This document shows, piece after piece, positions 490 to 11,416 of a stretch of 12,829 nucleotides of DNA (position 1 is its first letter; every line of letters starts with the position of its first letter). The stretch spans positions 1-12,829 of the forward strand of contig JAEOTW010000323.1 of the NCBI GenBank assembly GCA_016839655.1, read 5' to 3'. The DNA comes from Promethearchaeota archaeon. GTDB lineage: Archaea; Asgardarchaeota; Lokiarchaeia; Sigynarchaeales; SOKP01. The position numbers were made by a program, and so were the translations under genes. The notes below the pieces were generated by a model. It searched no databases. It was not told the DNA's origin and was given only the letters and a program-made list of their open reading frames with translations.

Positions 490-2244
490 ATGAAAGTCGT
501 ACTAAATAAAAAACTGTTAGATTCGCTAATAATAACAGGTGTTATTATTAACTTCATAATTTTTGCCACATTTAGTAGTATACTTTTTAGAACAAATATT
601 ATAATAGGACCCTCTGGTAGCGGTCTTAGAATAGCAAGAACATCCAATCCTTATACTATGGATCCAGTGGATGCATGGGATAGTGTTTCAAATGACATGC
701 TCCATCAGGTGGTAGAAACTCTGATTGCTTATGATTTAACAGATCCTGATCTTCCACTTGTTGGGAAGCTTGCTGAATCATGGTATTGGCCTAACAACAT
801 AACTATCGTGTTCAAACTTCGAGAGAATGTATTTTTTCATGATGGTTCCAAATTTACTGCTGATTGTGTTCTCCATACTATAACAAGGATTAACTTTTTT
901 GGTAATTGGTCTGGGACATTAGATCCTGCTACTCATACGATGGCTTTTCCACATTCGCTTTATAAGTTTAGTGATGGAACTCCTATTTTTAATGATTCTT
1001 TAAGCTTTGCTACTGATGATTATAATGTTACCCTTGTGTTGAATCACCCTTATAGTCCTGCTGAAGGATTATTAACGTATACTGCTAGTTCAATTGTCCA
1101 CCCAGATTCTACTCCTGCAGACGAAATGCTGAAACTTGATGAAGATCTCGTTATTGGAACTGGACCTTTTAAATTGGTGAGGTATATATCTGACTCTGAG
1201 GTCTTTTTTTCTCGATGGGAAAGGTATTGGAGAACTGGTCCCTATTGGGATAATATTAAATATACGTATTATCCAGACGCTATTACAGCAAATAATGCTA
1301 TGCTAGCATTAGATATTGACTGGTTAGGGCAGGGAATCGCTTCCCTCAAGCTAGATTTCGAAGCAGATCCAGATATTACAGTAACTGGAAATGGAACCTC
1401 GGATTATATTGCAAGTTCACTTTATTGGTATATTGGGTTTAATTCTGAAATTATAAATCAAACGTGGAGAAAAGCGATGTGCCATGCTTTTAATTACACT
1501 AATCTCATTGAAGATATTAAACAAGATACAGCTATTAAAGCTAACTCATTAGTTCCGCCAGAGTTCCCTGCACATAATAAATCAGTTACTGGAGGAACAC
1601 ATAATATCCCTTACGCTAGGCAAATAATGCAAAGTATGGGTTATGGCTATAAAAATAGCTCGCCTTGGGACGTAGGTTCTCAGGTTGGGGATATTTTCAC
1701 ACCTGGTACTAATGAATCTCTATGGCAATCAGCCGAGTTTACCCCAGATATTGGAAACTTTACACTTAATGGTTTTAATTTCCATTATAGTGGAGCTAGC
1801 AACTTTATATTAGATCTTATTGATCAGTTTAGTGATAATATGCATATGATTGGGATTAAAGCTGCTCACCCAGAACTACGTTTTCAATGGGATGATCCCA
1901 GCCCTCCAAAGGAACTTCATATTTATTATAGAGGGTGGGGTCCTGAATATTTTGAAACCTTTACTATGATTAATCCTCTTGTTAATCCGGCATCTTCAAC
2001 AAACTTTGGAAAAATTAATAATTCTGAAATTAATTCTCTCCTTACTATTACTTTAGCTGAAGCTAATACTATTCAAAGATATGACCATTATAAGAAGCTT
2101 CAGTACTTAATTCATGATAAATATTATTACCATATGCCTCTATTTTATGATAAACTCTATTTTGTGCATGCTGAAAACCTAAAGGGATTTCCATATAATC
2201 CCATGAGTAATTTATATTGGTATCCCACCTATCGAGAAACGTAA
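490..2244 (+). CDS. ABC transporter solute-binding protein, SBP_bac_5 (oligopeptide-type) family, copy 1
   Basis: Likely captures a peptide or similar small solute outside the cell for an ABC importer. The 584-residue length is typical of the family. Residues 12-33 form one hydrophobic N-terminal helix with no lipobox Cys, so it probably works as an uncleaved membrane anchor. From residue 48 the family pattern is clear: ARTSNPYTMDPVDAW, then LVGKLAESWYW, then FKLRENVFFHDGSKFTADCV, and later GTGPFKLVRY (223-232) and WYIGFN (313-318). Many NxS/T sequons suggest surface N-glycosylation. The start ATG is preceded by a weak AAGG at 479-482. A paralogue begins 34 nt downstream. No permease or ATPase gene is in the window, so partner and substrate are unknown; dipeptide, oligopeptide or sugar-oligomer binding all occur in this family. 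Confidence 0.92.
   Translation: MKVVLNKKLLDSLIITGVIINFIIFATFSSILFRTNIIIGPSGSGLRIARTSNPYTMDPVDAWDSVSNDMLHQVVETLIAYDLTDPDLPLVGKLAESWYWPNNITIVFKLRENVFFHDGSKFTADCVLHTITRINFFGNWSGTLDPATHTMAFPHSLYKFSDGTPIFNDSLSFATDDYNVTLVLNHPYSPAEGLLTYTASSIVHPDSTPADEMLKLDEDLVIGTGPFKLVRYISDSEVFFSRWERYWRTGPYWDNIKYTYYPDAITANNAMLALDIDWLGQGIASLKLDFEADPDITVTGNGTSDYIASSLYWYIGFNSEIINQTWRKAMCHAFNYTNLIEDIKQDTAIKANSLVPPEFPAHNKSVTGGTHNIPYARQIMQSMGYGYKNSSPWDVGSQVGDIFTPGTNESLWQSAEFTPDIGNFTLNGFNFHYSGASNFILDLIDQFSDNMHMIGIKAAHPELRFQWDDPSPPKELHIYYRGWGPEYFETFTMINPLVNPASSTNFGKINNSEINSLLTITLAEANTIQRYDHYKKLQYLIHDKYYYHMPLFYDKLYFVHAENLKGFPYNPMSNLYWYPTYRET
655..695 (+). repeat. 41-bp exact repeat, N-terminal part of binding-protein copy 1
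   Basis: Forty-one bases are identical to 2453-2493 in copy 2, flanked by mismatches on both sides. They encode the conserved segment around MDPVDAWDSVSN. Preservation of synonymous sites shows recent duplication or gene conversion rather than protein-level constraint alone. Confidence 0.85.
2156..2201 (+). repeat. 46-bp exact repeat, C-terminal part of binding-protein copy 1
   Basis: Forty-six bases are identical to 3954-3999. They encode the conserved YFVHAENLKGFPYNP segment near the C-terminus. The neighbouring sequence differs at many third codon positions, so this run stands out from its surroundings. Confidence 0.88.
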
Positions 2245-2278
2245 TTGAAAGGATAATATAAAAAAGTGAGAGGTTTAA

Positions 2279-4039
2279 ATGCGAGAAATAACAAATCAAA
2301 AAAAAATAAACTTTGCAATTGTAATTACTGTTCTGGCTAATATAATCATAGTGGGAGCCTTTGGTTCTATACTGCTAAGATCTATTACAGTAGAGGTATA
2401 TATTGATCGGTGGGGTGGACATCTTAAAGTAGCAAGAACATCCAATCCTAAAACTATGGATCCAGTGGATGCATGGGATAGTGTTTCAAATGATATGCTT
2501 GATCAGGTGGTTGAAACCCTCATTGCGTACGATTTAAGTGACCCAGACCTACGACTTGTAGGACGCCTTGCGGAATCATGGTACTGGCCCGATAATACAA
2601 CTATCGAATTTAAACTACGCGAAAATGTGTTTTTTCATGATGGTTCAAAATTTAACGCTGATTGCGTTCTCCATACAATAACGAGAATTAACTTTTTTGG
2701 TAATTGGTCTGGAACCTTAGACCCTGCTACTCATACTATGGCTTTTCCACACTCCCTTTATAAATTTTCAGATGGAACACCAATTTTTAATGATACTCTA
2801 AGTTTCGCTACAGATGATTATAATGTTACTCTTGTGTTAAATCGCCCTTATGGGCCTGTTGAAGGATTATTAACATATACCGCTAGTTCAATTGTCCATC
2901 CCGAATCAACACCTGCAAATCAAATGTTAGAAATTGGAAGAGATCTTATTATCGGAACTGGACCATTTAAATTGGTAAGGTATATTCCTAACTCAGAGAT
3001 AAGATTTGATCGATGGGAGAGATATTGGAGGACTGGGGTCTATTGGGGGGAGGATATTATTTATGTTTATTATCGGGAAGATGTCACCGCGAACAATGCG
3101 ATGTTAGCAGGAGATATAGATTGGTTAGGACAGGGAATCGCAGCTCTCAAACCAGATTTCGAAGCTGATCCGGATATTACGATAACTGGAGATGGTATTA
3201 ATGATTATATAAATGGACCAGTATATTGGTATATTGGATTCAACACTGAAAATATAAATCAGACTTGGAGGAAAGCTATTTGTCATGCGTTTAATTATTC
3301 ATATCTTATCCATGAAATTAAGGAAGACACTATTGTAAACGCTAATTCTTTAGTTCCACCTGGCTTTCCTGCTCATAATTCATCTGTTATAGGCGGCACA
3401 TATAATATACCATATGCACGACAAATTATGCAGAGTATGGGATATGGCTATACAGATGGGGTTCCATGGGATATAGGGACTCAAGTTGGTGTTGATTTTT
3501 ATCCCGGTACAAATGAAAGTCTTTGGAAATGGGCATCTTTTATACCAGCGGACGGAAACTTTTCATCAAATACTTGGGATTTTGGATATAAACAATATGG
3601 TCACTTTATTCAACTTCTTATTCAACGATTCACAGAAGATATGGATTTAATTGGGATTAGTATTACTCCAGAATGTTTAGTTTGGGATCCATTTAACCAT
3701 AAGTTCAATACACGACACATCTGGTTTACAGGTTGGGGACCAGACTATTTTGAGACTTTTGTTATGATCGAACCATTGATAAATCCCGAATCAACAAGTA
3801 ATTTTGGTAAAATTAACAACACTGAACTTAACGTACTCCTTGCTCAAGCTACAATTGAAATTTACACTCCACAAAGGTATCAATACTATAAAAAGCTTCA
3901 ATACTTAATTCATGATAAATACTATTACCATATGCCCTTATTTTATGATAAAATCTATTTTGTGCATGCTGAAAACCTAAAGGGATTTCCATATAATCCT
4001 ATGAGAATGTTATATTTATATCCAACATATCGTGGTTAA
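2279..4039 (+). CDS. ABC transporter solute-binding protein, SBP_bac_5 family, copy 2
   Basis: Tandem paralogue (586 aa) of the preceding gene with the same plan: N-terminal membrane helix (about residues 14-35), then a complete SBP_bac_5 domain to the C-terminus. By eye the first two thirds and the last 60 residues are very similar to copy 1, while about residues 410-480 differ strongly, including the stretch after NESLW and before GWGP-YFETF. That part lies in the second lobe, so the two copies may bind different ligands (inference). The start is supported by GAGG at 2270-2273, five nt before ATG, and the 34-nt gap to copy 1 suggests one transcript. A T8 tract lies 53 nt past the stop. No transporter subunits are adjacent in the window. 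Confidence 0.92.
   Translation: MREITNQKKINFAIVITVLANIIIVGAFGSILLRSITVEVYIDRWGGHLKVARTSNPKTMDPVDAWDSVSNDMLDQVVETLIAYDLSDPDLRLVGRLAESWYWPDNTTIEFKLRENVFFHDGSKFNADCVLHTITRINFFGNWSGTLDPATHTMAFPHSLYKFSDGTPIFNDTLSFATDDYNVTLVLNRPYGPVEGLLTYTASSIVHPESTPANQMLEIGRDLIIGTGPFKLVRYIPNSEIRFDRWERYWRTGVYWGEDIIYVYYREDVTANNAMLAGDIDWLGQGIAALKPDFEADPDITITGDGINDYINGPVYWYIGFNTENINQTWRKAICHAFNYSYLIHEIKEDTIVNANSLVPPGFPAHNSSVIGGTYNIPYARQIMQSMGYGYTDGVPWDIGTQVGVDFYPGTNESLWKWASFIPADGNFSSNTWDFGYKQYGHFIQLLIQRFTEDMDLIGISITPECLVWDPFNHKFNTRHIWFTGWGPDYFETFVMIEPLINPESTSNFGKINNTELNVLLAQATIEIYTPQRYQYYKKLQYLIHDKYYYHMPLFYDKIYFVHAENLKGFPYNPMRMLYLYPTYRG
2453..2493 (+). repeat. 41-bp exact repeat, N-terminal part of binding-protein copy 2
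   Basis: Partner of the 41-bp run at 655-695; a direct repeat about 1.8 kb apart, inside the paralogous coding regions. Confidence 0.85.
3954..3999 (+). repeat. 46-bp exact repeat, C-terminal part of binding-protein copy 2
   Basis: Partner of the run at 2156-2201; same encoded peptide in the second paralogue. Confidence 0.88.
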
Positions 4040-4994: not shown

Positions 4995-6938
4995 TTAAAG
5001 GTTTAGTTTAGATCTCCAAAATCTTATCTTACTTCTTAACTCATCTTTTTCGGTGTTAGTTAGTAAGTTCCTATTGCCTTTAAGCGGATTAATTCCCATT
5101 CTTATTTGTCTTAGAATAGCACTAAATCCTTTTTGTTCTAGAAGATCATCCTGTAATTTTTCTAAAAGGAGAGCGATCTGTTCTCCTGTTAATGTGTCGA
5201 TTTTACCTACAATATTATCAAATTGGTGTGAAAGGTTTGCATCAACTGACAAATCCATTCCAGGTTGAATAACTGGAGTTGGCTTTATTGGTTCAGGCGC
5301 TGGTGGAGTTCGTATTGGTTCAGGCTTAGGAGGTAATGGTTGGGAAACTTTTGGTGTGGGTGGGGTGATTGGTGGTTGATATTTTGGTTGTGGCACAGCT
5401 GGTCCAGGTGTTCGTTTTAAAGCTTGGGTAATTTCTACTTGGTCAAATTTTTTACTTTGAATCCAAACATCTTCTAAGACAGCAGCAAACAATTTTACAT
5501 GTTCTTCTAAGACTGAACCCATTCCTGCTATTTGCAATTCACCTGTTTCTGATCTTGATAATACACATACTACGACTTCTTCGAAATCCTTATTTATAGA
5601 CCATAGATTTTCTCTCGGATAATGTCTTATTGTTAAATTTGTATTACCTTCTACTTCTTTCAATCTCATTTGATCTTCTGGGTTATTTAGATCAAAATTT
5701 GCCGAAATTCTAATATTTATATGTTTCTTCAATCTAGTTAATGCCACTAAATCAATATCGCCCAATTTAGGTGCTACGATATGAACTCGCATTTTCACGC
5801 GGGATAATGATTCGTTTATTTGTGCTTTGATACCTTCTATACTTCTTACGAACCAAACATCTTTGAAACTTAATAGAGATGCTTCTTTTGAACGCTCCCA
5901 GAATTCTTGCATTGTCAGCTCTGCACTTTCTAATTGATTTATAATGTTATTAACAATGTCATCTTGTATTGTTTCAAAAATTTCAGTGCGAAATAGCTCT
6001 TTAAGTTCTGCTATCCCAGAAAGAATGTCATCATAGACTCCAGAAACTCTTTTTTCTAAATCTTCTAATGTAGTAACCATTCCACCTTGGATATCAGTAA
6101 ATATCGTCCCTAAGTCAGTACTTATTTCACCTGCAGTATCAGTAATGCTACCTAATTGCGATATAACTTGGTCTAACATGTTTTGGGTCGTTTGTACGAA
6201 TTTATTTTTAAAGGTTTTGGTTATCTCCGCAAATTGTTCTGAGATTACCTTAGAAACGATTTTTTCTGCCATACTACTTAATGCTCCAATTCTAAATTGT
6301 TTTTCGAATCTAGTTGCAATCTCAGATTTTACTGAATCCAATCGGGACTCCATTGCTTCAAAATCTCTAGTTATATCCGCAGGAACAATTTCTTTTAAAT
6401 TAAGTATGAATCTTCTTACATCTTGAAACCTACTTACTTGTTCCATTTCTTTCTCAAAGCGACTGAATTGTTCTTTTATTTGAGCTGGTAATTTTGTTTT
6501 CATTATTTGTAGATAAGTCTTGTAATCATCTAGTTTCTTAAGTTTTGCTGATTGTTCTCCTAATGAATCAAATTTTTCTTGTATATTTTGAGGTGCAATG
6601 TTTTGAAAAACTTTTATTTTCTCTTTAAACTGATGAATTTGACCTACAAGTGCAGCGTAGGGAGGTAAAGCTTCATAGATTGGCATTTTACCAGGAATCT
6701 GCTTAAGAAGACCCTTTTCGAATAAATTATTGGCTATCTCAGTAGCCCTTTCTTCAGTTATATTATTAAGTAGAGCTATTTCCCCTACCATTACAGGACC
6801 TCTTCCTGTAATTTTATAATATGTGTCAACCTCATCGTGAGCTAAACCAATGAGTTCTAAAACATGCTTTGTTGATGAGTCCTCTTCTCCTGACACGGTA
6901 ATTATCAACTCTTTATTATTTTTTATAGGCGGCTTCAA
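4995..6938 (-). CDS. TrmB-like winged-helix protein with long helical region, PLD-like domain and Pro-rich linker
   Basis: Last gene of the four-gene operon, 647 aa as given. Visible parts: a TrmB-type winged helix (about 24-92, ending in a KMPIYEALPP wing segment); a long amphipathic, probably coiled-coil helical region (about 100-350); an alpha/beta region (about 355-500) resembling the phospholipase-D-like domain that follows TrmB helices, starting at FKDVWFVRSIEGI, with no HxK motif and so probably non-catalytic; a Pro-rich linker (about 510-560); and a helical C-terminal domain (about 565-647). TrmB-family proteins are usually sugar-responsive regulators of about 250-350 aa, so the extra helices and C-terminal part are unusual; a structural or adaptor role is possible. 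No membrane segment. The start is uncertain: TTG at 6938 (overlapping the upstream gene by 23 nt), TTG at 6908 and GTG at 6896 are in frame, with no ATG upstream of the winged helix. A T6 tract (4946-4951) lies downstream on this strand. Confidence 0.8.
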   Translation of the reverse strand: MKPPIKNNKELIITVSGEEDSSTKHVLELIGLAHDEVDTYYKITGRGPVMVGEIALLNNITEERATEIANNLFEKGLLKQIPGKMPIYEALPPYAALVGQIHQFKEKIKVFQNIAPQNIQEKFDSLGEQSAKLKKLDDYKTYLQIMKTKLPAQIKEQFSRFEKEMEQVSRFQDVRRFILNLKEIVPADITRDFEAMESRLDSVKSEIATRFEKQFRIGALSSMAEKIVSKVISEQFAEITKTFKNKFVQTTQNMLDQVISQLGSITDTAGEISTDLGTIFTDIQGGMVTTLEDLEKRVSGVYDDILSGIAELKELFRTEIFETIQDDIVNNIINQLESAELTMQEFWERSKEASLLSFKDVWFVRSIEGIKAQINESLSRVKMRVHIVAPKLGDIDLVALTRLKKHINIRISANFDLNNPEDQMRLKEVEGNTNLTIRHYPRENLWSINKDFEEVVVCVLSRSETGELQIAGMGSVLEEHVKLFAAVLEDVWIQSKKFDQVEITQALKRTPGPAVPQPKYQPPITPPTPKVSQPLPPKPEPIRTPPAPEPIKPTPVIQPGMDLSVDANLSHQFDNIVGKIDTLTGEQIALLLEKLQDDLLEQKGFSAILRQIRMGINPLKGNRNLLTNTEKDELRSKIRFWRSKLNL

Positions 6939-8043
6939 GAAATTCCAGATGTTTTATTGCGACATTTTTGTCTAGTTTTTTCTCCATTCTATCTTTACGA
7001 ATCTTTTCTATTATATATTCAGGATAAAAAGTATGAACAACAATATCCGTCAATAAAAATACCCATAATGTTTCCTTACTATCTCTTATAACTTTAAGAA
7101 TTTGATTCTCTTCCATACCTTTTAAATAAGTTCCAATTTGGTCTAAACTTTCTCCAGGACCTTTTGGAATTTTGTTTATGGGATAAGGTCTTTCTCTAAA
7201 TAAAGTAATGTAATCATAATTGTCTGGATTCATTAATGTTCCAGCAATTTTTAAGTTATCCTCAAAATTAGGTTTGTAGTTTGAGAAAAATTTTGTAACC
7301 TCTTCAAGGTATTTTGAGGCAACTTCAGGTGTTGGTAAATTTTTCTTAGCATCTTCAACTAACTTAGATACTGGTGATCTAAAAATTGTAAAATCAGTGA
7401 GAAGAAATAAGGTTATATCAGTATCACCTTCCACCCAATCTTGCATTACCAATCCTGTCTTAATAAAAGGATCCAAGACATATTCTATATTTGGGATTAT
7501 TTTCTGTAATTTTTCTTCAATAATACCTTGTAATTCCCTTCTAGATAATGATCTTTCCTGTAAAGCCTCTAATATTGTTCTTGCTTTTTCGCTTGTATAG
7601 ATTTGTGCTAATCTTTGTTCTTTTGACAAATTTTTTAATCTATCTAAGAGAATTAATGTATTTCTCAAATATAGCTTTATTGTTTTTACAATCTCATAAC
7701 TTTGGGCTATATTAATACTCATTTGTCTTAAATATTTCACTAAATCTTGATTTATTTCCTGTAATACTGCTTCACCAAACATTTCAGGATCTTCTCCTAA
7801 CTCTAACATTAGGTTTATCATTACTGGCATATCAGATTCCAAACCAGTAAAAAAACTTGATACATTAGAGCGAGCTTTTTCTAATCTTACTAAAACATTT
7901 CCAGCTGCACCCGCACCTGTTATATGGGCATAAAAAATTCGCATCATATCATCTAAATCAATTGCGAGGTCTTCCGGATAACTAAGCTTTACAATTAAAC
8001 CTTGGTCTTCAGTCCATTCGGTTATAATAAAACCATGTGGCAT
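6916..8043 (-). CDS. Longin-like domain protein with two winged-helix-like domains
   Basis: A 375-aa soluble protein, third gene of the operon. The predicted order in residues 1-105 is strand (GFIITEW), strand (GLIVKLSYP), helix (LDDMMRIFYAHITG), three strands (NVLVRLEK, NVSSFFTG, PVMINLMLEL), then helix, which is the beta-beta-alpha-beta-beta-beta-alpha order of longin domains. This is a by-eye call and needs a profile search. A helical linker (106-147) leads to a winged-helix-like domain (about 150-222) ending FLLTDFTIFRSP, and a second (about 262-342) ending FLLTDIVVHTFYP; the shared FLLTD suggests an internal duplication. Longins elsewhere work in membrane trafficking and small-GTPase regulation; winged helices bind DNA or proteins, as in ESCRT-II. 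The ATG follows the previous stop directly (TAAATG), with GAGG (8055-8058) eleven nt upstream. Function unknown. Confidence 0.82.
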   Translation of the reverse strand: MPHGFIITEWTEDQGLIVKLSYPEDLAIDLDDMMRIFYAHITGAGAAGNVLVRLEKARSNVSSFFTGLESDMPVMINLMLELGEDPEMFGEAVLQEINQDLVKYLRQMSINIAQSYEIVKTIKLYLRNTLILLDRLKNLSKEQRLAQIYTSEKARTILEALQERSLSRRELQGIIEEKLQKIIPNIEYVLDPFIKTGLVMQDWVEGDTDITLFLLTDFTIFRSPVSKLVEDAKKNLPTPEVASKYLEEVTKFFSNYKPNFEDNLKIAGTLMNPDNYDYITLFRERPYPINKIPKGPGESLDQIGTYLKGMEENQILKVIRDSKETLWVFLLTDIVVHTFYPEYIIEKIRKDRMEKKLDKNVAIKHLEFLEAAYKK

Positions 8044-9702
8044 TTATTTTTCTTCCTCTTTTTTTGTAATTAAGTTTTCATTATACTGATTTTTTAATAA
8101 TTCTGAATTTAAAATAGTTTTTTGATCCTCAAAATGATTTTTAATAAGTTCCTCCCTTTGCCCTACTAAAATAGGTTTCATTCTTTTTGATTTTCTTACT
8201 TTTTTCTTTAATTTTCTTATTTTTCTTACAGTAGGAGGATATTTGAAATGAACTTGATACAGACCTATAACTACTACTACACCAATAATAGCTCCTGTTA
8301 ATGTATAAACTAACCAACTCAAATCTGGTCCGGGACTTACTGGTTCATCTGGTTCTACAATTATATAAGAAATTTCAAGCGATACGTCATCAATTGAAAC
8401 CGTCATATTTTGATCTAAGATAAAATCATCTGCAAGATACACTTGAAGTGAAATATTAACATCATCAGTAATTAAATTTGCCACATCAAAGCCACCAACT
8501 TTGGCATCTTGAAAGGATGTAGTGGCAGTACTTAATTTAATAGTTTCTGTGTGTTTATTATCATTAATTAGGATTCTTATTTCTGAGTTAGGAGATAATG
8601 ATGAATTCCATAAACTATCAATTTTATACTTGAAATTAAGAGTCGCATTTTGCACTAAAACAGGATATGTACTAATATTACTTATCTTCTCACAATCCTG
8701 ATTCCATGAGATTTTAGTAAATCTATCAATTTTTTTCTGGTAATCAAATGTGAGATTACAGGATTTATATAGCAATGAATAATATGTGTCTCTATCTGAT
8801 TGAGCATAATTATCCTCAACATCAATATCTATCCCTAGAAAGATAGTAAAGTTATAATTATCATAATCTAAGACTTTTTCTAAATAGTAAGTTAGTACAT
8901 CTTTAGGCAAAGGCACTAAATATGTATCATATACATGATTTTCGATTCCATCACTAGGGGTGTCATTACTTGCAGGAAGATCTCCAATTCCTAAATCACG
9001 AGGTAAAAAACTAGCTGCTAAATATCTATCCTCCTGTTCCATATCAGATAATTGTACATAGAAAGTTACGTGATCATATTCTGCAGCTGATGGACTCGCT
9101 CCAGTCATATTATCATTGGGGGTTTCAACATTTGTATTTGCGGTTGCATTGAATAATACTGATAAATCTACCGTTGAAATTGAATAATCACTCATATTAT
9201 GCGGCATTTCAATAATTCTTCTCCATAAGATACTAGGGCGATTACGTGTTTGATTACCCATGACACCGTATATATTTAGGGTGGAACTTTCCCAATATTC
9301 ATGTTTTGCTTCACATCCATCTTGGTTGATTTCATAGACATCAGGATAAATTGAGTCACCCGGTTTTTTTGTAGGCGTCCAATCTGAAGCTTTTGGTGTA
9401 CTAGAGATGTTTGAAAAAGTCCACTCTTCCCCAATTATTTTCCAATTTGCCTGTCCCCCATTGATACTTCCATCTACATCAGAATTATCACCTTCAGAAT
9501 CCATATACCAAAATGATTGGGATGTAAAATCAGAATTTTTCACCCATTGTCCTTCTCCTGGTATTCCAGCAGCAAGATCTGGTGGATTTACTGTTTTATC
9601 ATTTAGGGACATTGTTGTTATATTTATTGAAGTGTTACCAAAAATTAATGTGAAAACGTATATAAATAATAAAATGGAATAATTAATTTTCTTGTTATTC
9701 AT
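8044..9702 (-). CDS. Type I membrane receptor-like protein, paralogue B
   Basis: I do not recognise a named family. With the start chosen here it has 552 aa: a signal-type hydrophobic segment (about 8-22), a large beta-rich ectodomain with many N-glycosylation sequons (about 30-460), one TM helix (about 464-484), a polybasic juxtamembrane stretch (RKIRKLKKKVRKSKR, about 493-507) and a cytoplasmic tail to 552. The ectodomain starts with a GEGQWVKNSDF motif, as found at the front of jelly-roll or galactose-binding-like modules, and its membrane-proximal part (FDVANLI, SIDDVSLEISY) suggests a second beta sandwich; both folds are inference. Cys at 315 and 337 are shared with paralogue A and may form a disulfide. 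The frame could begin at an ATG at 9738, but the ATG at 9702 overlaps the upstream stop by a few nt and has a well-placed GGTGAT, so I prefer it. Confidence 0.82.
   Translation of the reverse strand: MNNKKINYSILLFIYVFTLIFGNTSINITTMSLNDKTVNPPDLAAGIPGEGQWVKNSDFTSQSFWYMDSEGDNSDVDGSINGGQANWKIIGEEWTFSNISSTPKASDWTPTKKPGDSIYPDVYEINQDGCEAKHEYWESSTLNIYGVMGNQTRNRPSILWRRIIEMPHNMSDYSISTVDLSVLFNATANTNVETPNDNMTGASPSAAEYDHVTFYVQLSDMEQEDRYLAASFLPRDLGIGDLPASNDTPSDGIENHVYDTYLVPLPKDVLTYYLEKVLDYDNYNFTIFLGIDIDVEDNYAQSDRDTYYSLLYKSCNLTFDYQKKIDRFTKISWNQDCEKISNISTYPVLVQNATLNFKYKIDSLWNSSLSPNSEIRILINDNKHTETIKLSTATTSFQDAKVGGFDVANLITDDVNISLQVYLADDFILDQNMTVSIDDVSLEISYIIVEPDEPVSPGPDLSWLVYTLTGAIIGVVVVIGLYQVHFKYPPTVRKIRKLKKKVRKSKRMKPILVGQREELIKNHFEDQKTILNSELLKNQYNENLITKKEEEK
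8669..8713 (-). repeat. 45-bp exact repeat in paralogue B
   Basis: Forty-five bases identical to 10383-10427, encoding the SWNQDCEKISNISTY segment of the ectodomain, with mismatches at both ends. Surrounding positions are also similar but not identical. Confidence 0.88.
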
Positions 9703-11416
9703 CGTTATCACCATCTTTCTGTAATTTGATATTTTCATTTATATGGTCTTTTTTAGAAATTGATTCACTAGTTTTGTCTTTTTCTATTTCTTGTACTTGT
9801 TTCGATGGCATTGGTTCAAAATCAAGTATTTCTAATTTTTCCTGAACCTTATTTCTAATAATTCCACTTCTTTTGTTTACAATTATAGACTTTAATTTCT
9901 TAGATTTTTTTACTTTTTTCTTTAGTTTTCTTATTTTTCTTACCATCGGTGGATATTTGAAGTGACCTTGATATAATCCGAAAACAATAACGATACCACC
10001 AATAACAGCAATTAATAAGTAAACAAGCCAACCCAATTCAGGCCCTGGGCTTATTGGTTCATCTGGTTCTACAATGATGTAAGATATATCAAGCGATACG
10101 TCATCTATTGATACTGTTATATTTTGATCTAAGATAAAATCATCTGCGAGATACACTTGAAGTGAAATATTAACATCATCTGTTATTAAGTTTTTCACAT
10201 CAAAGCCACCAATTTTTGCATCTTGAAAGGAAGTGGTGGCAGTACTTAATTCAACAGATTCTGTATGTTTATTATCATTAATTAGGATCCTTATTTCTGA
10301 ATTAGGAGATAATGAAGAATTCCATATATTATCAATTTTGTATTTAAAATTAAGAGTTGCATTTTGTACTAAAACAGGATAGGTACTAATATTACTTATC
10401 TTCTCACAATCCTGATTCCATGAGATTGTGGTAAATCTATCAATTTTCTTTTGATAGTCGAATGTAAAATTGCAGGTTTTAAAAAGTAGATAATACCATG
10501 TATCTAATTCCAAACCTGAATAATTATCTTCATTATAAATATCTATACCAAGTGTTATTCTAAAATTTTGATTGTCATGACTTAATACACGGTTAAGATA
10601 AAAAATTAGCTCATCTTCGTCATTTATTTTCATTAAGGTATCGTTTATTTTGCTTGCAATTGCCCTACCCCCCCTCTCAGTTCTATTCTCGTATCCTCTT
10701 CCTAAATCAATAGTCTGATTATATAATACTTCATACATTTCTATTTTGTTTAAGTCTGAAAGATAGACTGAAAAACGAGCGTGATCATATTCAGCAGCAT
10801 AACCATTTGTAGGTTCTCCTTCAATGGATTCGAAGGGTGTTTCAATATTTATATCTGCACTTGCATTAAATATCGCAGAAAGGTCTGCTGATGTAATATA
10901 ATAATCTTCCATACTTAAAGGCATTGTAACAATTCTATTCCAATGAACAATTGGATTGTTTCGACTTTGATTCCTTGGATAACCATATATATTAAGTCCT
11001 CCTGAACCTTCCCAATATTCATGAGTAGCATTTAGACCATATGGAGTGAATTCATAAACATCCGGAAGGATAGATATTGCTGATTCTTTCCCTGGTGTCC
11101 AGGCTGTAGCGTTTGGTATACCAGTTATGTTTGAAAAGAAGTTATGCTCTCCAATGATTATGAAATTTCCTTGTTCTCCACTGATAATTCCATCAACATC
11201 AGTATCATCTCCCTCAGATTCTAAATACCAATATGTTTGGGAACTAAAATCAGTATTTTTCACCCATTGTCCTTCTCCAGGTATTTCACCCGCAGTACGA
11301 ACTCCATTGACTTTACTAAAATTAATTATTATGTACAAATTAAATGGAAAATTTACAAAAATGATAGTTAAAATAAAAAAGCTGAGAAAAAGATGTTTTT
11401 TTTTTACTTCCATCAT
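9695..11416 (-). CDS. Type I membrane receptor-like protein, paralogue A
   Basis: First gene of the four-gene operon, 573 aa from the ATG at 11416 (a TTG at 11428 and an ATG at 11413 are alternatives). Layout: basic N-terminus and hydrophobic signal segment (about 9-32), ectodomain opening with GEGQWVKNTDF, many NxS/T sequons, one TM helix (about 463-483), polybasic juxtamembrane segment (RKIRKLKKKVKKSKK, about 493-507) and a longer, charged cytoplasmic tail of about 65 residues. Two Cys (about 315 and 337) are shared with paralogue B. The membrane-proximal ectodomain (about 320-460) is almost identical to B, while the membrane-distal half is clearly less similar, e.g. about 220-285. No catalytic motif is visible; sensing, adhesion or carbohydrate binding are all possible. 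A T10/A10 homopolymer lies in codons just after the start. The stop overlaps the next ATG. Confidence 0.82.
   Translation of the reverse strand: MMEVKKKHLFLSFFILTIIFVNFPFNLYIIINFSKVNGVRTAGEIPGEGQWVKNTDFSSQTYWYLESEGDDTDVDGIISGEQGNFIIIGEHNFFSNITGIPNATAWTPGKESAISILPDVYEFTPYGLNATHEYWEGSGGLNIYGYPRNQSRNNPIVHWNRIVTMPLSMEDYYITSADLSAIFNASADINIETPFESIEGEPTNGYAAEYDHARFSVYLSDLNKIEMYEVLYNQTIDLGRGYENRTERGGRAIASKINDTLMKINDEDELIFYLNRVLSHDNQNFRITLGIDIYNEDNYSGLELDTWYYLLFKTCNFTFDYQKKIDRFTTISWNQDCEKISNISTYPVLVQNATLNFKYKIDNIWNSSLSPNSEIRILINDNKHTESVELSTATTSFQDAKIGGFDVKNLITDDVNISLQVYLADDFILDQNITVSIDDVSLDISYIIVEPDEPISPGPELGWLVYLLIAVIGGIVIVFGLYQGHFKYPPMVRKIRKLKKKVKKSKKLKSIIVNKRSGIIRNKVQEKLEILDFEPMPSKQVQEIEKDKTSESISKKDHINENIKLQKDGDNDE
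9707..9712 (-). promoter_or_regulatory. Ribosome binding site GGTGAT deciding the start of paralogue B
   Basis: Minus-strand GGTGAT, complementary to the archaeal 16S rRNA 3' end, lies 4 nt before the ATG at 9702. It sits inside the last codons of the upstream gene, pointing to coupled translation. An in-frame ATG (9714) overlaps this site and another lies at 9738. Confidence 0.6.
10383..10427 (-). repeat. 45-bp exact repeat in paralogue A
   Basis: Partner of 8669-8713, a direct repeat about 1.7 kb away within the tandem paralogues. Confidence 0.88.

Follow-up and report, generated by a model that had tools for sequence, protein, structure and literature searches.

Lokiarchaeial surface proteins with a common cytoplasmic tail are encoded beside a longin-winged-helix protein and may form a receptor system linked to small GTPases

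The stretch analysed here, in the following called the window, comprises the 12,829 nucleotides of contig JAEOTW010000323.1 from a Promethearchaeota archaeon assembly and has a GC content of 31.5%. Its subject is a set of four consecutive minus-strand genes, P1, P2, P3 and P4, flanked by genes for an SDR oxidoreductase and a glyoxalase. P1 (9695..11416, ATG at 11416) encodes a type I surface protein of 573 residues and P2 (8044..9702) a second one that is its paralogue; P3 (6916..8043) encodes 375 residues with a predicted longin domain and two winged helices, and P4 (4995..6896) a protein with a TrmB-type winged helix, a long helical region and a C-terminal part. An earlier note on this DNA had described the four as an operon, and all the open reading frames are present. 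The stop codon of P2 and the start codon of P3 adjoin as TAA-ATG, as described there. The 8-nucleotide overlap given for P1 and P2 holds if P2 begins at ATG 9702, the start we prefer, and grows to 44 nucleotides for the longest frame, which begins at 9738. The 23-nucleotide overlap of P3 and P4 requires the possible start TTG 6938. The most likely start of P4 is GTG 6896 because most aligned homologues begin at that position; it leaves a gap of 19 nucleotides resembling the gaps in many relatives. The promoter assigned to the front of the operon was not confirmed: a sigma-70 scan, a model unsuited to archaea, gave 41 sites against 37.5 expected. The closest named matches to the window proteins come from metagenome-assembled genomes under various Asgard labels, among them Hermodarchaeota, Promethearchaeota and Odinarchaeota; we take the window to be lokiarchaeial.

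By hydropathy, P1 and P2 are single-pass proteins, each with an N-terminal hydrophobic segment and one C-terminal transmembrane segment (P1, residues 465-483, 9980..10036, minus strand, hydropathy 2.69; P2, residues 475-493, 8260..8316, minus strand, hydropathy 2.26). Their ectodomains carry 15 (P1) and 13 (P2) predicted N-glycosylation sequons, compared with means of 5.6 and 5.7 in shuffled sequences. The cytoplasmic tails begin with a polybasic juxtamembrane region, the first 45 residues containing 17 K/R and no D/E in P1 (tail at 9698..9979, minus strand) and 15 K/R and four D/E in P2 (tail at 8047..8259, minus strand). The earlier description of two glycosylated, single-pass proteins with basic juxtamembranes was thus borne out at the level of prediction. 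Tail alignments and composition revealed a conserved motif, KYPPMVRKIRKLKKK in P1, which recurs in P2 (KYPPTVRKIRKLKKK) and in the wider tail family. The ectodomains resisted assignment: P1 has 396 homologues, with no precomputed Pfam domain among the 120 matches listed, and neither a Pfam match in 31 family members nor a credible PDB-sequence match was obtained for the P1/P2 ectodomain, a PDB match at E 1.3 being taken as chance. In the second half of the ectodomain the frames of P1 (9695-11428) and P2 (8044-9738) contain identical DNA blocks of 45, 32 and 29 nucleotides, which are suggestive of gene conversion.

With the P3 alignment as query, 84,980 species genomes were scanned and 37 loci obtained, all with Lokiarchaeota or Lokiarchaeia titles. 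Together with further genome searches and after removal of identical P3 sequences, 132 distinct P3-family genes or fragments were collected (loci and genomes are cited by our L and G numbers). Forty-two P3 genes with a profile score above 380 were designated class A; loci with at least 300 nucleotides upstream or 600 nucleotides downstream were counted as testable on the side concerned. In 38 of 39 testable loci the gene immediately before P3, on the same strand, encodes a tail-bearing surface protein, and P4 follows P3 directly in 36 of 41. P4 is missing from this place in L016 (first of two copies), L017, L081, L082 and L083; in L082 it lies beyond the surface gene on the other side, as does a fragment of it in L081. 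L016 (7147-18486) has two P3 copies, each directly behind its own surface gene (948 and 1353 residues), with P4 after the second only.

The set recurs in a second, paralogous form. Class B consists of P3 relatives of about 417 residues that are located elsewhere; a P4 relative comes next, and one to three divergent P1-like surface genes accompany them (L072, L091, L093, L094, L097, L098, L099 and L101). Outside class A there are 90 P3 genes. Eleven of them have P4 as well as a tail no more than three genes away, five have P4 only, 30 a tail only and 44 neither. The paralogous P3-P4 set, mostly accompanied by P1-like surface genes, occurs at 16 loci. In a FastTree tree of P3 with midpoint rooting, classes A and B, with two L084 genes, group at 0.998; class C, introduced below, is placed among genes linked to GTPases, several of the nodes there being weakly supported, and only the grouping of A and B was used. 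Because the class B module repeats the set and A and B group in the tree, the P1-like, P3 and P4 genes have stayed together through duplication. The earlier note had made its proposal depend on the gene types recurring together in relatives; they do so across Lokiarchaeia, with the paralogous module and gene fusions in addition.

What the surface proteins have in common is the end of the chain. Ectodomains differ between loci, and in several loci likeness to P1/P2 is limited to the transmembrane segment and tail. The complete tail-bearing proteins range from 506 to 2598 residues, apart from four short frames of 148-340 residues, and the juxtamembrane motif reads KYPP.VRKIRKLKKK in class A, KYP.PVRKVRKY.KTL in class B and IP.FVKK.REM.K.IKGRK in class C. 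A profile of the transmembrane segment and tail alone found 91 places in 18 genomes, 80 of them within 10 kb of a P3-like gene compared with 1-5% expected per genome; P3-like places (93) were those reaching into the winged helices at E<=2.3e-24, longin-only matches and short C-terminal fragments being excluded. In the single-contig genome G001 all seven tails lie within this distance. Six of the 11 exceptional tails belong to the distant genomes G181, G185 and G214, two lie on contig C54 of G002, which has no P3 place, and the remaining three are 10.9, 24 and 52 kb away. Counted in reverse, 55 of 66 strong P3-like genes have a nearby tail, as does one of 27 weaker ones. The weaker paralogues in these 18 genomes are mostly without a nearby tail, and frames of about 125-145 residues related to the longin part of P3 were also seen. 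Surface proteins in L081 (1798-7509), L082 (9964-13278) and L080 (1460-4726) match P1/P2 twice per frame and have several internal hydrophobic segments.

The topology of the arrangement is indicated by gene fusions. Class C comprises P3 relatives of about 370 residues encoded behind giant surface proteins (1167-2598 residues where complete); in most cases the two genes overlap by a single base or abut. In L074 the two are joined in one protein of 2087 residues. Its hydrophobic N-terminal segment is succeeded by an ectodomain in which DUF2341, LamG and CarboxypepD_reg leave weak traces, then by a transmembrane segment at 1611-1629, the tail and a P3 domain at 1725-2080. Tail and P3 matches share a frame in three of 18 genomes, namely G001, the genome of L002 and L074, and G127 (frames of 2095 residues) and G122 (565 residues, little ectodomain). 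Such fusions put the P3 domain in the cytoplasm, beyond the tail.

For P3 itself, no Pfam match was found for the window protein at E<=1. An AlphaFold2 model from 31 close homologues (mean predicted local distance difference test score, pLDDT, 53) was discarded; the final model, from an alignment of 97 diverse rows, reached a pLDDT of 91.2 and a predicted template modelling score of 0.80. It supports the longin-like domain proposed earlier (residues 1-137, 7633..8043, minus strand) and contains two winged helices rather than the one described (residues 141-223, 7375..7623, and 239-339, 7027..7329, both minus strand). A Foldseek search returned three matches at E<=0.001, all of them chains of GATOR1 complexes, the output not giving the subunit identity of the chains. 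The predicted architecture, an N-terminal longin domain and two C-terminal winged helices, would be that of NPRL2/NPRL3 (Npr2/Npr3 of SEACIT). P3 differs from these in the linkage of its genes to surface proteins and in its whole-chain comparison with the GATOR1 chains (template modelling scores 0.22-0.25, root-mean-square deviation above 20), from which the domain order may be common and the arrangement not. In the longin-DENN regulators FLCN/FNIP2, Lst4, C9orf72-SMCR8 and DENND1, which act as GTPase-activating proteins (GAPs) or guanine nucleotide exchange factors (GEFs), the C-terminal half differs, the P3 model having two winged helices there and no DENN domain. The winged-helix pair of ESCRT-II Vps22/25/36 was not among the 50 fold matches listed, with no search aimed at ESCRT-II, and no Vps28-like part was noticed, again with no dedicated look made. 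P3 has a net charge of -10 and its longin domain one of -8.

The TrmB-type winged helix attributed to P4 was recovered (residues 28-93 of the long frame, 6660..6857, minus strand) by Pfam PF01978 at E 1.6e-5 and 25.1 bits, slightly below the cut-off (25.6), and by a profile match to TrmB 3qph at 4.6e-6. Precomputed PF01978 assignments are present on most of the 120 P4 homologues listed, the window protein included. Behind it come some 250 coiled-coil-like residues (approximately residues 110-345, 5904..6611, minus strand, bounds approximate, judged by the alignment and by weak Pfam matches to helical families), then a stretch that is conserved, a linker rich in proline and the C-terminal segment; relatives of about 490-515 residues in L013, L022, L028 and L029 have neither the linker nor the C-terminal segment. 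The PLD-like domain of the earlier note found no counterpart, that part of P4 giving no Pfam or PDB-sequence match, and the domain and fold searches gave no unrelated known function. P4 resembles the TrmB family (TrmB, TrmBL2) in its N-terminal winged helix and differs in its long helical insert, in having no detected effector domain, in the position of its gene next to P3 and surface genes and in the acidity of the winged helix (net charge below zero in 43 of 45 rows, compared with +3 for the corresponding stretch of the single comparator 3qph, charge being indicative only). Among the loci examined P4 accompanies class A and B genes only. That it serves as a scaffold or stalk is a guess.

Longin domains are a usual platform for GTPases, and the neighbourhoods of more distant P3 relatives contain GTPase genes. 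From 147 genomes with a listed P3-profile match we picked 25 (best E about 1e-35 to 1e-29) and used 20, leaving out G006, G008, G187, G189 and G207. In all of these 20 other Asgard genomes, which are of the same phylum and have weaker P3 matches, an Arf-family GTPase match lies 0.3-3.3 kb from the P3 relative on the same strand, downstream in 18, compared with a chance expectation of 4-10% per genome (mean 6.5%) at 12-30 Arf matches per genome. GTPase genes adjoin P3 also in the left-out genomes G006, G189 and G207. The neighbouring GTPases that were tested match Pfam Arf, Roc and Ras, and about 115-165 residues precede the G domain. GTPase genes flank some class B and C genes as well (L073, L092, L100, L120 and L123). 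The GTPase profile was built after a regular expression had missed some GTPases; its counts of 27/58 and 8/32, for which B was split from C/D by length only, are lower bounds with short-flank loci included, and the large negative distances obtained for L147 and L152 are artefacts that the formula produces with overlapping neighbours. In L092, L096 and L100 a protein of 545 residues is encoded 135 nucleotides from the P3b gene in opposite orientation, with a Ras-family domain from residue 169 in the L100 copy; a second gene of similar size follows it in L092 and L100.

Eukaryotes have longin GAPs that act on Arf and Rag GTPases (PMC8213707, PMC8534245, PMC9646525). The Asgard longins and GTPase-longin/roadblock fusions of PMC10933270 belong to the same fold class and organisms as P3; in the excerpts of that paper, however, the GTPase genes of MK-D1 lie generally outside longin operons, whereas P3 relatives are paired with GTPase genes, and the text of the paper lacks the term 'winged helix', whereas P3 is a longin-winged-helix protein. 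The ArvA-ArvB-ArvC vesiculating GTPase operon (PMC10927574) likewise joins an archaeal small GTPase to conserved partner genes. These differ, ArvB being a DUF2073 protein and ArvC a zinc ribbon, and the portion of the paper available mentions no longin or receptor.

We propose that the cluster is a modular surface-receptor system in which P3 couples receptors to small GTPases, a reading to which we give close to an even chance. It is based on the recurrence of the genes, the common tail, the fusion, the predicted fold of P3 and the GTPase neighbourhood of its relatives. The coupling of P3 to receptors is well supported, while regulation of GTPases by P3, binding of P3 to the tail, the role of P4 and the direction of signalling are what we infer. 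P1 and P2 would be type I membrane proteins in which variable ectodomains are combined with a constant transmembrane segment and polybasic juxtamembrane tail. The acidic P3, fused to the tail in some genomes, would dock on it at the membrane, and its longin domain would bind a small Arf-like GTPase and regulate it as GAP, GEF or effector platform, the GTPase for the A-type module of the window being encoded elsewhere. P4 may be a TrmB-derived accessory scaffold of the A and B modules, with a long helical stalk and a winged helix that probably does not bind DNA. The earlier suggestion of an undescribed surface-sensing or membrane-organising module stands on this sequence evidence, and the P3 fold and GTPase neighbours give it a sharper, still putative, form.

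Several findings weigh against this proposal. The outside neighbours (SDR, glyoxalase) are partly conserved too, and as the upstream SDR gene is common to many loci, some of the conserved gene order could be background; the evidence from the paralogous module, the fusion, the tail and the GTPases is independent of it. The 44 non-class-A P3 genes with neither tail nor P4 count in the same direction, many of them having short flanks, and the tail profile, being made from tails adjoining P3, may favour such tails. No tail-bearing gene occurs in the loci of the 20 GTPase-linked P3 genes (flanks of about 5 kb where the contig allows), so that linkage to receptors and linkage to GTPases are mostly found in separate relatives. 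Conversely, the available sequence around the 42 class A P3 genes contains no GTPase gene at a distance of 3 kb or less, and a GTPase partner of the window P3, if any, is therefore encoded elsewhere. Kinship with NPRL2/NPRL3 was not detected at the sequence level (hhalign probability 0.2 of 100 for NPRL2), and membership of P3 in the Pfam NPR2/NPR3 families was rejected, as 0/227 genomes exceeded the cut-offs for PF06218 and PF03666. Finally, an arginine in the longin beta4-beta5 loop, in which we place Arg78 of NPRL2 by our own reading of its sequence, without superposition, is present in 23 of 62 other rows and in only two of 35 class A rows, which weighs against an NPRL2-like GAP in class A.

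A part of these findings would suit a purely structural role, in which P1 and P2 are adhesins or cell-coat proteins that P3 and P4 anchor or cluster, perhaps to a cytoskeleton, and no GTPase signalling takes place. Such an adhesive module fits the large size and variability of the ectodomains, which gave weak signs of Ig-like, LamG and CarboxypepD_reg domains in three out of four giant proteins of C type that were tested. It also fits the conserved anchoring tail, the lack of GTPase genes near class A and the absence of tails from the GTPase-linked relatives. It accounts poorly for the Arf-family genes beside P3 relatives in 20/20 other genomes, for the GTPase genes that flank the tail-linked P3 loci L073, L120 and L123, and for a longin domain, typically a GTPase platform; we regard it as possible and distinctly less probable than the receptor system.

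The three winged helices, two in P3 and one of TrmB type in P4, raise the further question of a route from surface to gene, by which P3 and P4 would be transcription regulators with a membrane tether, and the receptors would release or switch them. The second winged helix of P3 does align with DNA-binding regulators of ArsR type. However, the helices likely to serve in recognition are for the most part neutral or acidic, reaching +2 or more in one of 97 rows for the first and 19 of 97 for the second winged helix of P3 (charge again being indicative only), the winged helix of P4 is acidic as described above, and the fusions show that the P3 domain can belong to a membrane protein. This alternative is unlikely, and P3 as an ordinary transcription factor is ranked low because of the charge and fusion evidence. 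Least probable is a function in cargo sorting, with the tails as sorting signals and P3 as a longin-type coat or TRAPP-like adaptor loading receptors into budding membranes with Arf-like GTPases: the longin fold is common to TRAPP, AP and SNARE proteins, Arf-family GTPases neighbour the relatives and a short conserved tail on swapped ectodomains resembles a sorting signal, but no pointer to budding was found, coat, SNARE and ESCRT genes in the loci not having been searched for.

Asgard archaea are the closest prokaryotic relatives of eukaryotes, and GATOR1 subunits regulate growth-controlling GTPases in human cells. If the receptor system with GTPase coupling by P3 is viewed against this background, an Asgard receptor-to-GTPase pathway can be envisaged in which longin-winged-helix proteins ancestral to NPRL2/NPRL3 regulated Arf/Rag-like GTPases under swappable receptors, and the nutrient-signalling core of GATOR1 type would have begun as an archaeal surface-sensing module. 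We hold this idea only tentatively and think it rather doubtful. It would make the cluster a possible archaeal source of a GATOR1-type regulator and of eukaryotic receptor signalling; confirmation of the function would in any case establish a new kind of archaeal signalling from the surface to the inside. Among the open-licence PMC papers listed by our searches, none was found that describes these surface proteins or that connects NPRL2, GATOR1 or a protein of longin-winged-helix type to Asgard archaea. Asgard genomes encode many small GTPases without known partners. Here, in some Asgard genomes, a family with the architecture of a GTPase regulator stands repeatedly beside a GTPase gene, and in Lokiarchaeia beside surface receptors; the pairs of P3 relative and GTPase gene can be expressed as test pairs. 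Matching Asgard GTPases with GAPs or GEFs has been difficult, operons with roadblock, longin and TRAPPC3 genes being generally not shared, as stated in PMC10933270.

Further genes were seen around the modules. Just downstream of the class C P3 gene in L073 lies a RuBisCO-large-like gene (5397-6767, minus strand; PF00016, 4e-44), and genes of similar size (438-464 residues) follow P3 in L109, L111, L114, L117, L118 and L120. The window contains no Rfam family at gathering scores and no tRNA. On its plus strand (490-4039) it encodes two tandem, similar SBP_bac_5 (PF00496) solute-binding proteins, each with an N-terminal hydrophobic segment, and a related pair is located downstream in locus L001 as well.

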